Program-made: the position numbers and the translations under genes
In this document: positions 58,819-63,739 of the stretch, one piece after another
How positions within the stretch are numbered: position 1 is the stretch's first letter
Layout: the number at the start of each line of letters is the position of its first letter
Notes under the pieces: model-generated
Database searches by the model: none
What the model was told of the DNA's origin: nothing
What the model saw: the letters and a program-made list of their open reading frames with translations, nothing else
Source: Chlorobaculum parvum NCIB 8327
GTDB lineage: Bacteria; Bacteroidota; Chlorobiia; Chlorobiales; Chlorobiaceae
DNA length: 64,000 nt
Assembly (NCBI RefSeq): GCF_000020505.1
Contig: NC_011027.1
Location: 1,596,001-1,660,000 of the forward strand
Direction of reading: 5' to 3'

Positions 58819-59607
58819 CTATGACTCCCGTAGCGTAAACCTCACCGGGATGGTCATCCAGACTCTCACCTTGCGGCCGTTCTGGATTCCCGGCGTGTAC
58901 TTGGTCTCCATCGCGATGCGGATCGCCTCCTGATCGAACATCGTGCCGTCCGACGGAATACGTTTGACGACATTGGCCTTCATGGCGCGTCCATCCTCGC
59001 TGATAAGCACGCGCACAAAGACACGGCCTTCGATTCCGGCAATTCTGGCCATCTCCGGGTATCTCAGGCTGGGAATACTGACCACGGTCGGCGGCGTCTG
59101 ACAGTTGACGAACTCCACAACGGTATCGCCACCAGTTCCACCACCGGCATTCTGATCGGCAGGGCCTTGCTGAATAGCCTGCTTGATCTCTTTCTGCGTG
59201 GCAAAGGTCTGCTCCGGAGGTGCTTCGGCAACCTTTTTGATTTTACCGACCTTCGGCGCAGCTTCGACCGGTGCAGCAACCCGTTTGACCGACGGTGGTT
59301 CGGGCGGGGCGATCGGCGGCGGTGGAGGAAGCTGCGTCACATTGGTGACGATTTCATAGCACTGAACCGTCTCCGGCTCAGACGATCCAAACATGCCGGT
59401 AAAGCCCAGCAGGCGGCTCCAGTTGGCACTGACAATCCAGAAAAGCATCAGCGCAAGCACCGAAACCACAACCCCATGAGTCAGAAAAAGGTGTGCCTCG
59501 CGACGTAGCGTCAGATTCCCGTAATTGATATGGCGCAGCCTGTCGGTATCGAGAAACTGCTCGCGGAAGGTCCACCGCTGCGCCTTCCTGGCCGCATCCT
59601 CATGCAT
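58819..59607 (-). CDS. tonB: TonB family energy-transducing protein
   Basis: A 262-residue protein with one N-terminal span at about 42-62, a proline-rich periplasmic linker (PPPPPIAPPEPPSVKR) and a C-terminal TonB domain at about 175-262 (YPEMARIAGIEGRVFVRVLI, ending in WMTIPVRF). It delivers the energy of the ExbB-ExbD proton channel to outer-membrane receptors. No receptor gene is adjacent. It begins 51 bases after the second exbD. Confidence 0.92.
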   Translation of the reverse strand: MHEDAARKAQRWTFREQFLDTDRLRHINYGNLTLRREAHLFLTHGVVVSVLALMLFWIVSANWSRLLGFTGMFGSSEPETVQCYEIVTNVTQLPPPPPIAPPEPPSVKRVAAPVEAAPKVGKIKKVAEAPPEQTFATQKEIKQAIQQGPADQNAGGGTGGDTVVEFVNCQTPPTVVSIPSLRYPEMARIAGIEGRVFVRVLISEDGRAMKANVVKRIPSDGTMFDQEAIRIAMETKYTPGIQNGRKVRVWMTIPVRFTLRES

Positions 59608-59658
59608 TTATTTCAATTTCGACGACACGATCCGTACTCCTGTCTTGCTTGTTGCAGG

Positions 59659-60219
59659 TCACGCACCCTTGGCGACGGAGGGCTCCGACGCTGCATGGTG
59701 AGACGCTACCTTGTTGATTTCAGCCTGATCCTGATCGGTAAAATCATCGAGGCTGAAGCGGTCGATCTTCATCAGGTTGAACTCGTCGATAATATCGACC
59801 AGCGACTTGTATTTGGCCTTGTCGCTGATGCGAACGACGATTACCAGCTTGCTGTTTCGCGCGAACTCCTGCCGCAGCGCCTGCCGCAGCTCACGACTGA
59901 GCGAAAAGTGCGCGTCGCCCTTGTCATACAACGGAACCTGACGAGGTGATGCCTCACCGAGAGACCAGTAGGCAAAACCGTCGCCGGGCACCCGGAGCGT
60001 CATCACGTTCAGCTCGGCCACCGCCACCTCGCCCTTCTCCGGCGGAATGTTGATCTCCATCGTATTCGACTTGGCGAAGGTAGTGGTCAACATGAAAAAA
60101 GTGAGCAGCAGGAATGCGACATCGACCATCGGCGTCATGTCGAGCCGGAAACCAAGCCTTTTGCGCTGGCGTTTGCCCCGCTTCGAGCCGCGCCGTTCGG
60201 GTGAATCGACCATGCCCAT
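59659..60219 (-). CDS. exbD: ExbD-like biopolymer transport protein, copy 2
   Basis: A 186-residue protein with a basic N-terminus, one span preceded by [20 protein letters not shown] (the Asp in the span conducts protons) and a periplasmic domain. It lies one base after the first exbD and differs from it in the periplasmic part, so the two may form a mixed dimer under ExbB. Confidence 0.9.
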
Positions 60220-60220
60220 A

Positions 60221-60754
60221 TCAGCGAACCTCCTTTTCGAGCACGGTCACCAGGTTGAAGTTGAGCAGGTTCATCTTCTTGAACACCTTGATGACATAGT
60301 TGACCGACTCGTAATCGGCGTTGTTGTCCGCCTTGATGACCGGCCTCATCCGCTGGTCGGCAAAGCGCGACATCATGATGTAACGGGCAAGCTCCTCCTT
60401 CTCGATTTTGAAACTGTCGGTAAGCTTGAACCTGTTGAGCGAATCGGCCACAGCTGCCGGAGACATACCACCGTTCAGGAGCTTCTGCCGGATGACCGAA
60501 TCGAACAGCCGCTCTCTTGTCGGCTGCGACGAAACCCCCATGTAGAATGAGTTGTCGCCGGCAACGGTCACAGTGAGCACCTCCGACTCGGGCAGCTTCA
60601 TGTTGGAGTGGGATGAGGGCAGATCGATCTGCACCACTTCCGGCGGCCGGAACTTGGTGGTCAGCATGAAGAAGGTGAGCAGCAGAAACGCCACGTCCAC
60701 CATCGGCGTCATGTCGATCCGGAACCCGACCCTTTTTCGTTTGATCCTGGACAT
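60221..60754 (-). CDS. exbD: ExbD-like biopolymer transport protein, copy 1
   Basis: A 177-residue protein that opens with a Lys/Arg-rich stretch and [20 protein letters not shown], the ExbD span with its proton-carrying Asp. The periplasmic domain differs from copy 2. It starts eight bases after exbB and lies in the same transcript as exbB and tonB. Confidence 0.91.
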
Positions 60755-60762
60755 GACTTACT

Positions 60763-61521
60763 TCACGCTTGGGATTTGCCCGTGCCGAGGGTCTGGATGA
60801 TGTAGAAGGCAGCCTCGTCGATCTGGTAGCTGAACTTGTCAACCCGGTTGGTAAACACATTGTAGGCCACGATGCCCATAATACCGCCGAGAATGCCGAG
60901 CGCCGTGTTGAAGAGCGCCTCGGAGATGCCGAGCGAAAGCTGCACGGCGTCGGGCGCGCCGCTGGTGGCCATCGCTGCGAAGGCGCGGATCATGCCGAGT
61001 GTGGTGCCGAGCAGGCCGACCATGGTCGAAATCGAGGCGATGGTCGAGATGGCCACGAGGTTCTTTTCGAGCAGCGGCATCTCCATGACGGTCGCCTCCT
61101 CGACAGCTTTCTCCATCTCGCTGATGCGCTTTTCACGGTCGGTCACATTGTGCACCGCCAGCATCTTGTAGCGGTCGAGCACCGCCCGCATCACAGCCGC
61201 AAGCGAACTCTGATGATCGTCGCAGCGGGAAATGGCCTGATCAACCGCGCCCGCATCGATATCCTGCTTGAGGCTCTGCACAAACTCGGTGATGTTGCCC
61301 TTGCCCGAAGCCTTGTTCAGCGCCACGATACGCTCGACCACGTAGGCAATCACCATCAGGATAAGCGCCATGAGCACCGACACAATCGGCCCACCCTTCC
61401 AGAGCGCGTGGAACATCGAATCCGGTGGCGTCGTGCCCATCCAGACATAGAATCCGAGAGAAACCGAGTAGGTCACCACAATCAGAATCGCCGTAAAAAA
61501 ACCCTGCTTCATAGCGTACAA
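60763..61521 (-). CDS. exbB: ExbB/TolQ/MotA-family proton channel protein
   Basis: A 252-residue protein with three spans: one near the N-terminus (about 10-30), one at about 40-58 and a C-terminal pair around 150-225 with LVAISTIASISTMVGLLGTT. It forms the pentameric channel around ExbD. First gene of exbB-exbD-exbD-tonB. The long cytoplasmic loop between spans is a normal feature. Confidence 0.92.
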   Translation of the reverse strand: MYAMKQGFFTAILIVVTYSVSLGFYVWMGTTPPDSMFHALWKGGPIVSVLMALILMVIAYVVERIVALNKASGKGNITEFVQSLKQDIDAGAVDQAISRCDDHQSSLAAVMRAVLDRYKMLAVHNVTDREKRISEMEKAVEEATVMEMPLLEKNLVAISTIASISTMVGLLGTTLGMIRAFAAMATSGAPDAVQLSLGISEALFNTALGILGGIMGIVAYNVFTNRVDKFSYQIDEAAFYIIQTLGTGKSQA

Positions 61522-61840: not shown

Positions 61841-63739
61841 ATGATCCCCCAACGCATGATTGATGAAGTCCGACAGAGTTCGGACATTGTTGACATAGTG
61901 TCGGATTATGTCAGGCTCAATCCGTCAGGCCGCCACTTCAAGGCCCTCTCCCCCTTCACGCAGGAGAAAACCCCCTCCTTCATCGTTTCGCCCGACAAGC
62001 AGATCTACAAATGCTTTTCGAGCGGCAAGGGAGGCAACGTCTTCACCTTCATCATGGAGATGGAGAAGGTGACTTTCCCCGAAGCGGTCGAGATGCTGGC
62101 CAAGCGCGCCGGAGTGGACACCAGCAAATACCAGCTGCAGAAAGCGCAACAGGAAGACAAACAGGAAAGCAACCAGCATGAAACGCTCCGCTGGGCAGCC
62201 CGGTTGTTTCACCAAACTCTGGAGAGCGATGCAGGCAGGGCGGCGTATGCCTATCTCGTCGGCAAGCGTGGACTGGAAGCGAGCACGATCCGCAAATTCG
62301 GCCTCGGCTTTGCACCCGAAGCGTGGGAGTTCCTGCTCGACGCTGCCCGGCGTGACAACATTCCGGTCGAGCAGCTCACCGCCCTCGGCCTCGTGACGCG
62401 CCACCGGGAGCGCAACAGTCTATACGACACCTTCCGCAACCGGATCATCTTTCCGATTCTGACTGTCGGCGGACAGGTGGCCGGCTTCGGCGGCCGGACG
62501 CTCTCGAACGATCCGCAGACACCGAAGTACATCAACTCGCCGGAGAGCGCCATTTTCGAAAAGTCGAAACTGCTCTACGGAATGCACGCCGCCAAAAACG
62601 ACATCCGCAAGCAGGAGACGGCAATTCTCGTGGAAGGCTACATGGACGTGATCGCCATGCACCAGGCCGGAGTCACCAACACGGTGGCCTCCTCGGGCAC
62701 GGCACTCACCCGCTACCAGGCAAAAATTCTCAAGCGCTACACCTCGCGCGTTCTTTTTCTGTACGACGGCGACAACGCGGGCAAAAAGTCGATGCTTGCC
62801 GGCATCGACATCCTGCTCTCCGAGGGGCTTACCCCGTGGGTAGTCCTCCTGCCCGGTGGCGACGACCCCGACAGCTTCATCAGAAACTATGGCAAGGAGG
62901 CGTTTCTCGAAGAGCTCGAAAGTGAGAAAAGCTCATTCCAGGATTTCCAGCTCCGCTGTTATCGCGACGCCGGGCTCATGGAAAACCCTGATACCGCCTC
63001 CAAAGCGATCTCGGCCATGACCAAAAGCATCGCCTTGATCGCCGACCCCGTCCAAAAGGAGTTATACCTCGAAGAGCTGTCGAAAAAGCTTGACCTCAGC
63101 CGCCAGACGCTCCGCAAGGTGATGGCCTCCAGCAACGATGATCGTGCGCCTCGCTACGAATCACGGGGGCCAAGCCAGCAGAAAAGCTCGCCCGAAGTGA
63201 AGGCCGATAATCGCCCGATCTCTGTGGCCGAGCGCACCTTTCTCGAAGCGCTGCTCGAAAGCACCTTCTACGGCAACGAAGTGCTCGATTTCGCCGCTTC
63301 GCACGAATCGATGTTCACGCTTGAACACCCTGCTGCACGAGCAATCTTTACGCATCTGGTCGAACGCTTCCGCGAGATGGACGACAAAGAAGGCCACATC
63401 GACATCACCTCGGAAATCAGCTCCCTCGGCCTGGAAGAAGCACGCAACATCGCGCTCGACATCCTCTTCCGACTTCCGGTCAGCGAAACCAACCTCCCCT
63501 CCCCGCAGGAAGCCGCCCAGCACGCCCGCCGCTGCCTTTCTCACTTCCTCGTCGCAGTCAAAACCATCGTACTCGAACCGCTGCAACGCCAGAAGCAGGA
63601 CATTCTCAACCGCCTCAACAGCACATCTGAAAAGCCGGAAGAGAAAAAGCTTTTCGCGCAACTCCACGACATCAACAACCAGCTCCGCGAAATGGAGCAG
63701 GAGGTTGACGAGTCGATCAGAGGGATTCTGGGAGAATAA
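61841..63739 (+). CDS. dnaG: DNA primase DnaG with an altered zinc-ribbon
   Basis: A 632-residue primase. The TOPRIM core has VEGYMDVIAMHQAGVTNTVA (metal Glu) and LFLYDGDNAGKKS (DGD). An RNA-polymerase-like domain and a C-terminal helicase-binding region follow. The N-terminal CHC2 zinc-ribbon keeps its fold motifs (EKTPSFIVSPDKQIYKCF), but at the four canonical ligand positions it has Ser37, Thr40, Cys58 and Ser61 instead of Cys, His, Cys and Cys. Spacing matches Escherichia coli C40/H43/C61/C64. So zinc binding is probably lost and template recognition may work another way. The gene otherwise has normal length. Confidence 0.95.
   Translation: MIPQRMIDEVRQSSDIVDIVSDYVRLNPSGRHFKALSPFTQEKTPSFIVSPDKQIYKCFSSGKGGNVFTFIMEMEKVTFPEAVEMLAKRAGVDTSKYQLQKAQQEDKQESNQHETLRWAARLFHQTLESDAGRAAYAYLVGKRGLEASTIRKFGLGFAPEAWEFLLDAARRDNIPVEQLTALGLVTRHRERNSLYDTFRNRIIFPILTVGGQVAGFGGRTLSNDPQTPKYINSPESAIFEKSKLLYGMHAAKNDIRKQETAILVEGYMDVIAMHQAGVTNTVASSGTALTRYQAKILKRYTSRVLFLYDGDNAGKKSMLAGIDILLSEGLTPWVVLLPGGDDPDSFIRNYGKEAFLEELESEKSSFQDFQLRCYRDAGLMENPDTASKAISAMTKSIALIADPVQKELYLEELSKKLDLSRQTLRKVMASSNDDRAPRYESRGPSQQKSSPEVKADNRPISVAERTFLEALLESTFYGNEVLDFAASHESMFTLEHPAARAIFTHLVERFREMDDKEGHIDITSEISSLGLEEARNIALDILFRLPVSETNLPSPQEAAQHARRCLSHFLVAVKTIVLEPLQRQKQDILNRLNSTSEKPEEKKLFAQLHDINNQLREMEQEVDESIRGILGE

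Follow-up and report, generated by a model that had tools for sequence, protein, structure and literature searches.

A zinc-binding site is commonly regarded as a hallmark of bacterial primases. Four ligands in the order Cys-His-Cys-Cys (CHCC) are the general state of bacterial DnaG, and the zinc is treated as essential for recognizing the starts of Okazaki fragments. For plant and phage primases (PMC10557236), and also for Bacillus DnaG (PMC5429622), there is support for template reading by the ribbon domain that holds this site. The structural versus recognition role of the zinc has been called unresolved (PMC6163395). Structural zinc has been lost with function kept in ribosomal proteins and DksA, in each case as backup paralogs (PMC2770081). 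In animal Twinkle primase activity has been lost (PMC10557236), and the homologous site of fly Twinkle binds an Fe-S cluster, 2Fe-2S (PMC9653094). Our literature search, which covered few subscription papers, returned no description of a zinc-less bacterial DnaG; one may exist elsewhere.

The dnaG locus of Chlorobaculum parvum

The window, by which we mean the whole stretch of 64,000 nucleotides that was analysed (NC_011027.1, positions 1,596,001 to 1,660,000), contains a complete dnaG open reading frame of 632 aa, from an ATG at 61841 to a stop codon at 63737-63739. Its features, in window coordinates and protein residue numbers, are as follows.

61841..63739, + strand: dnaG, DNA primase, 632 aa (TIGR01391, 446 bits; Pfam domain order; full-length model pLDDT 90.8)
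61841..62128, + strand: N-terminal primase ribbon domain, residues 1-96 (PF01807, 112 bits); zinc-ribbon fold predicted (pLDDT 91.2; TM 0.90, rmsd 1.0 to 1D0Q), zinc ligands gone
61949..61951, + strand: Ser37 (TCC), position of zinc ligand 1 (Cys), by alignment to 1D0Q and 2AU3
61958..61960, + strand: Thr40 (ACG), position of zinc ligand 2 (His), by the same alignment; variable among zinc-less relatives
62009..62011, + strand: Lys57, adjoining ligand 3; Lys in 58/58 zinc-less Bacteroidota/Chlorobia; its counterpart in the Clostridioides difficile primase determines trinucleotide preference (PMC5204125)
62012..62014, + strand: Cys58 (TGC), the sole surviving zinc ligand; many zinc-less relatives have Asp here
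62018..62020, + strand: Ser60, a fifth signature position; mostly Gly in zinc forms (75/83), Ser in all aligned zinc-less sequences
62021..62023, + strand: Ser61 (AGC), position of zinc ligand 4 (Cys); zinc-less relatives nearly all have Ser/Thr here, and two have Ala
62621..62881, + strand: TOPRIM domain (PF13155, residues 262-347) with E265, D309 and D311 intact in invariant columns
63221..63736, + strand: C-terminal helicase-binding domain, helical by secondary structure of the full-length model, containing Cys565

The protein covers the DnaG equivalog profile TIGR01391 completely (positions 1-414 of 414) and scores well above its cut-off of 283.6 bits; PF01807, DNAG_N (PF08275), Toprim (PF13155) and DnaB_bind (PF10410) follow one another in that order, each above its own cut-off. 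The full-length profile match, the succession of ribbon, RNA polymerase/TOPRIM and helicase-binding domains, and the TOPRIM acids all identify it as DnaG. A sequence-only reading of this DNA had described the TOPRIM site as kept, which was borne out, as E265, D309 and D311 are invariant in an alignment of 48 sequences. Across the complete genome (2,289,249 bases, ~2.29 Mb) the PF01807 and TIGR01391 profiles have one match, dnaG itself, with no second DnaG copy, zinc-binding paralogs included, and Prim-Pol (PF09250) has no match. Since this is the sole primase found and its TOPRIM site is intact, the enzyme should be active, presumably as a maker of template-directed RNA primers. Divergent from dnaG, on the minus strand at 58819-61521, the sequence suggests a row of genes for TonB-like, two ExbD-like and ExbB/TolQ-like proteins.

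In a gap-free alignment to the solved primases 1D0Q and 2AU3, the four ligands Cys, His, Cys and Cys correspond to Ser37, Thr40, Cys58 and Ser61, and the original observation that three of four ligands are missing at canonical spacing therefore stands. Judged by sequence, the protein is a DnaG orthologue without the Cys-His-Cys-Cys set at conserved spacing that defines the CHC2 zinc ribbon.

Fixation in Chlorobia and conservation of the ribbon

A profile search with PF01807 found a match in 93 of the 98 genomes of class Chlorobia, and the CHCC form is present in none of the 93. The motif P-F-T-x-E-(K/R)-T ... K-C-F-S-(S/T)-G, searched as a DNA pattern and spanning ligand positions 40, 58 and 61 and not 37, was found exactly in 87 of these genomes, each of which has Ser or Thr at position 61; the remaining six ribbons, inspected directly, read S-(S/N/K)-C-(S/T). 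Ser37 occurs in all 49 Chlorobia whose whole ribbon was read. Five drafts gave no match to PF01807 or TIGR01391, most likely because of assembly gaps; the two of them rated 99% complete, both Chlorobiaceae (G149, G056), probably have contig gaps. That the zinc-less site is a sequencing or assembly error in the C. parvum genome has a negligible probability: we found nothing in its support, every Chlorobia genome that was read has the same residues together with synonymous differences of its own, and the absence of CHCC from all 93 genomes with a match rejects chance as well as error. A lineage trait, which had been raised as a possibility, proved a correct but too modest description, for the state is fixed in Chlorobia and recurs in Bacteroidota, Verrucomicrobiota and Patescibacteria.

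Mean pairwise identity within Chlorobia is 84.6% over ribbon residues 26-70, compared with 71.4% for TOPRIM, 60.9% for the RNA polymerase domain (RPD) and 50.8% for the helicase-binding domain; as the best-conserved part of the protein, the ribbon is not a decaying domain. The AlphaFold model of the ribbon domain reaches pLDDT values of 95-97 across residues 31-70, and Foldseek superposes it on 1D0Q (TM 0.90, rmsd 1.0 Å) and 2AU3 (TM 0.81), with Twinkle as the next structural match. The full-length model (mean pLDDT 90.8) has one disordered linker, at 436-454. The zinc-less ribbon is thus predicted, by modelling alone, to keep the zinc-ribbon fold. AlphaFold tends toward the family fold regardless of metal-site integrity, so that the model supports, rather than proves, stability of the fold without zinc. 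A zinc-free ribbon had been suggested to entail an altered mechanism. With the fold predicted to be kept to 1.0 Å and the ribbon more conserved than the catalytic core, the economical reading is that the way in which the domain is held together has changed and the priming mechanism has not; a changed template specificity is possible.

Signature of the replacement

Ser37 is present in all 58 aligned zinc-less sequences (43/43 Chlorobia, 15/15 other Bacteroidota), as are Lys57, Ser60, Ser/Thr61 and Gly62, and position 58 is Cys or Asp. Ser60 also occurs in all zinc-less sequences aligned from other phyla. In the wider set, position 61 is Ala in two zinc-less relatives and otherwise Ser/Thr. Position 40 varies freely (T, N, S, K, H, A, G, V or Q). 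Position 34 is Lys in 43/43 Chlorobia and 11/15 other zinc-less sequences; zinc forms usually have V, I or L there. Asp58 is found in most Flavobacteriaceae-like and Patescibacteria zinc-less forms, and Cys58 in all Chlorobia. His57 is common among Patescibacteria, which places Lys57 outside the core signature. Lys57, Lys63 and aromatic residues are kept in the aligned zinc-less ribbons.

Both serine codon families, TCN and AGY, are used for Ser37 and for Ser60, and the changes from His to Thr at position 40 and from Cys to Asp at position 58 each take two or more base changes. To judge by the sequences, the replacements resemble the product of selection for one particular alternative core, not of drift.

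Distribution outside Chlorobia

Interleaved with CHCC relatives, S-x-(C/D)-(S/T) in constant combination with Ser60 turns up in at least three phyla, namely in Flavobacteriales and several other families of Bacteroidota, in one order of Verrucomicrobiota and in Patescibacteria. In our Bacteroidota sample, where the ribbon was read in 56 of 57 families, most families are CHCC, and the zinc-less form is found in f11, f15, f23 and f25, in part of f6 and f26, and in one member of f31. A scan of named genomes, which indicates presence and not frequency, placed the Cys58 form, among the matches listed, in Crocinitomicaceae, Cryomorphaceae, Schleiferiaceae, Roseivirga, Mangrovivirga, Marinigracilibium and others, and in at least two Verrucomicrobiota (Puniceicoccaceae). 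Its search pattern fixed Lys57, Cys58, Ser/Thr61, Gly62 and Lys63, and these positions are therefore no evidence of convergence in this set. One Verrucomicrobiota order gave 45 zinc-less loci, S-(T/N/S/Q/K/G)-(C/D)-(S/T), against 6 CHCC, and Patescibacteria 18, mostly S-x-D-S, against 33; the best matches to the zinc-less profile were read first in both groups, so these counts are biased and are not frequencies. No viral relative of C. parvum DnaG was confirmed.

A Candidatus Yonathbacteria locus (L388, genome G415) encodes, in frame +1 from about base 1424, a 145-aa ORF with a stand-alone zinc-less ribbon (GCSPFNREQKPSF...KCFSTGKGG) that ends in ...DEDDDLPF, resembling the C-terminal tip of SSB; it could be a ribbon-plus-SSB-tail factor, and the same genome also has a full DnaG with CHCC (L282). 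In a Mucilaginibacter genome (G417; L284, L276) a 322-aa zinc-less primase-like ORF (SNCS) accompanies a full-length zinc-less DnaG (SADT), and a Schleiferiaceae MAG (G424; L271, L283), either a single genome or a mixed bin, has two full DnaG genes, S-N-C-S and S-N-D-S. The dnaG frame is broken just after or inside the ribbon in L142 (G264), where 99 aa are followed by 555 aa in a different frame, and in L136 (G179), where 82 aa are followed by 617 aa. Since L150, a close relative of L142, is intact, these are probably assembly errors, although the ribbon is the site of the break in both. A Crocinitomicaceae-like DnaG ribbon lies on a contig labelled Sphingomonadales (L237), likely a mislabelled MAG.

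Number of origins

Trees of the catalytic domain indicate repeated changes of zinc state: 7 in the Bacteroidota sample, at least 4 of them forced by supported branches; 11 in a quick tree of three phyla (109 rows), at least 6 forced; and 10 in a careful tree of the same phyla (50 rows), all 10 forced by supported branches. The zinc-less ribbon might instead go back to one event and have been passed on by transfer of the gene or of the domain, which would suit replacements that are closely alike everywhere, and a single origin is not significantly disfavoured by the ribbon within Bacteroidota alone (p-AU 0.141, 89 columns). Across the three phyla, a single zinc-less clade is rejected both by the catalytic domain (p-AU 1e-49) and by the ribbon after removal of the eight signature columns (p-AU 0.003), and the ribbon tree requires 4 changes of phylum as against 11 of zinc state. 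We consider one origin followed by transfer decidedly unlikely. As a single clade is rejected for both parts of the protein and the ribbon tree follows phylum, the sequences indicate that the zinc-less state is convergent between phyla, and it is probably convergent within Bacteroidota as well.

The direction of change is taken to be zinc loss because CHCC is the general bacterial state. In Verrucomicrobiota a CHCC clade (L344, L346-L348, L351, L356) sits among zinc-less sequences on an unrooted tree, which makes a regain of the zinc ligands in this order conceivable, and such a regain is possible.

Proposed metal-free core and alternative readings

The loss of the ligands, its fixation in Chlorobia, its recurrence and independent origin in three phyla and strong conservation are established by the alignments and trees. 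To account for them, we think it likely that the sole replicative DnaG of C. parvum carries a ribbon in which zinc was convergently replaced by a metal-free polar core, with the fold, the template-reading face and priming kept. If the zinc of DnaG is taken as structural, Ser37, Ser60 and Ser/Thr61 could form, together with Cys58 (Asp58 in other lineages), a hydrogen-bonded knot that pins the two knuckles of the ribbon, and position 40 would lie free outside this core. The ribbon would then contain no metal, would still present a basic template-reading face (Lys57, Lys63) and would still work with the RNA polymerase domain in starting primers, the basic priming mechanism being unchanged; the same replacement of zinc would have evolved many times. 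In C. difficile the preferred trinucleotide is influenced by the residue that adjoins ligand 3 (K70, PMC5204125), and Lys57 may accordingly hint at a leaning to 5'-CCC as start trinucleotide.

A site that still binds metal, through Ser, Asp or Thr oxygens (Mg2+ or Ca2+), through Cys58 and water, or through ligands elsewhere or on a partner, is an unlikely reading, although several observations lend it some weight. Asp58 occurs in most of the Flavobacteriaceae-like and Patescibacteria forms, and the 2Fe-2S cluster of fly Twinkle (PMC9653094) shows that the metal at this site can change. Cys58 and Cys565 are the only invariant cysteines among the 43 aligned Chlorobia. Retention of Cys58 throughout the class could reflect a metal-related role, and Cys565, which is not conserved elsewhere in the phylum sample, may, to go by the alignment, belong to a metal site in the C-terminal half along with the partly conserved H488, H496 and H505; we count both against the metal-free explanation. 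A conserved site of any one kind is difficult to reconcile, however, with a position 40 that is often Ala, Val, Gly or Lys and a position 58 that alternates between Cys and Asp inside one phylum, and the alignment contains no conserved set of three or four replacement ligands elsewhere in DnaG, which together make a different metal less likely. It is very improbable that the ribbon is functionless like that of metazoan Twinkle, a structural remnant beside which priming runs with relaxed or no template recognition. T7 primase without its zinc domain makes dinucleotides without template direction (PMC6163395), and both the lost activity of animal Twinkle (PMC10557236) and its place as next structural match would fit such a remnant, but no part of Chlorobia DnaG is as conserved as the ribbon, Lys57, Lys63, the aromatic residues and the TOPRIM site are kept, and the genome search gave no further primase.

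Beyond the metal-free core proposed for C. parvum, we lean slightly toward the view that bacterial DnaG has two stable states, zinc-held and zinc-free, with at least 10 switches by way of a convergent Ser-x-(Cys/Asp)-x-Ser-(Ser/Thr), possibly with reversals, and that the zinc-free state alters the zinc demand of replication and perhaps the initiation trinucleotide. The zinc site of primase seems replaceable by a metal-free version, and whole classes and families whose sole primase lacks the zinc ligands are natural experiments in which the structural contribution of zinc can be told apart from any part in recognition. This bears on zinc-directed primase inhibitors and on annotation that uses CHC2 as a hallmark, and a switch made repeatedly and convergently lends itself well to the study of how a buried metal site evolves away.

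Comparison with known systems

Among described systems, C. parvum DnaG shares with the canonical enzymes of Geobacillus stearothermophilus (1D0Q) and Aquifex aeolicus (2AU3) the domain order, the ribbon fold as predicted (pLDDT 91; TM 0.90 and 0.81, respectively), the TOPRIM site and the spacing of the four positions, and with the latter also a Lys adjoining ligand 3; it differs in having Ser/Thr/Ser for three of the four ligands and Ser60 for Gly. The C. difficile primase has Lys70 at the place equivalent to Lys57, beside a ribbon ligand, but retains its zinc ligands (PMC5204125). The Zur-controlled, zinc-independent paralogs of DksA and ribosomal proteins (PMC2770081) are alike in having lost the cysteines of a structural zinc site with the fold presumably kept, yet they are backups for zinc shortage, whereas this DnaG is fixed in its lineage and is a single copy, with one PF01807/TIGR01391 match where a zinc-sparing backup would have a second, zinc-binding copy beside it. 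Metazoan Twinkle is likewise a primase-helicase relative with an altered ancestral zinc site; unlike animal Twinkle, which lost primase activity, C. parvum DnaG has an intact catalytic site and is the sole primase found.
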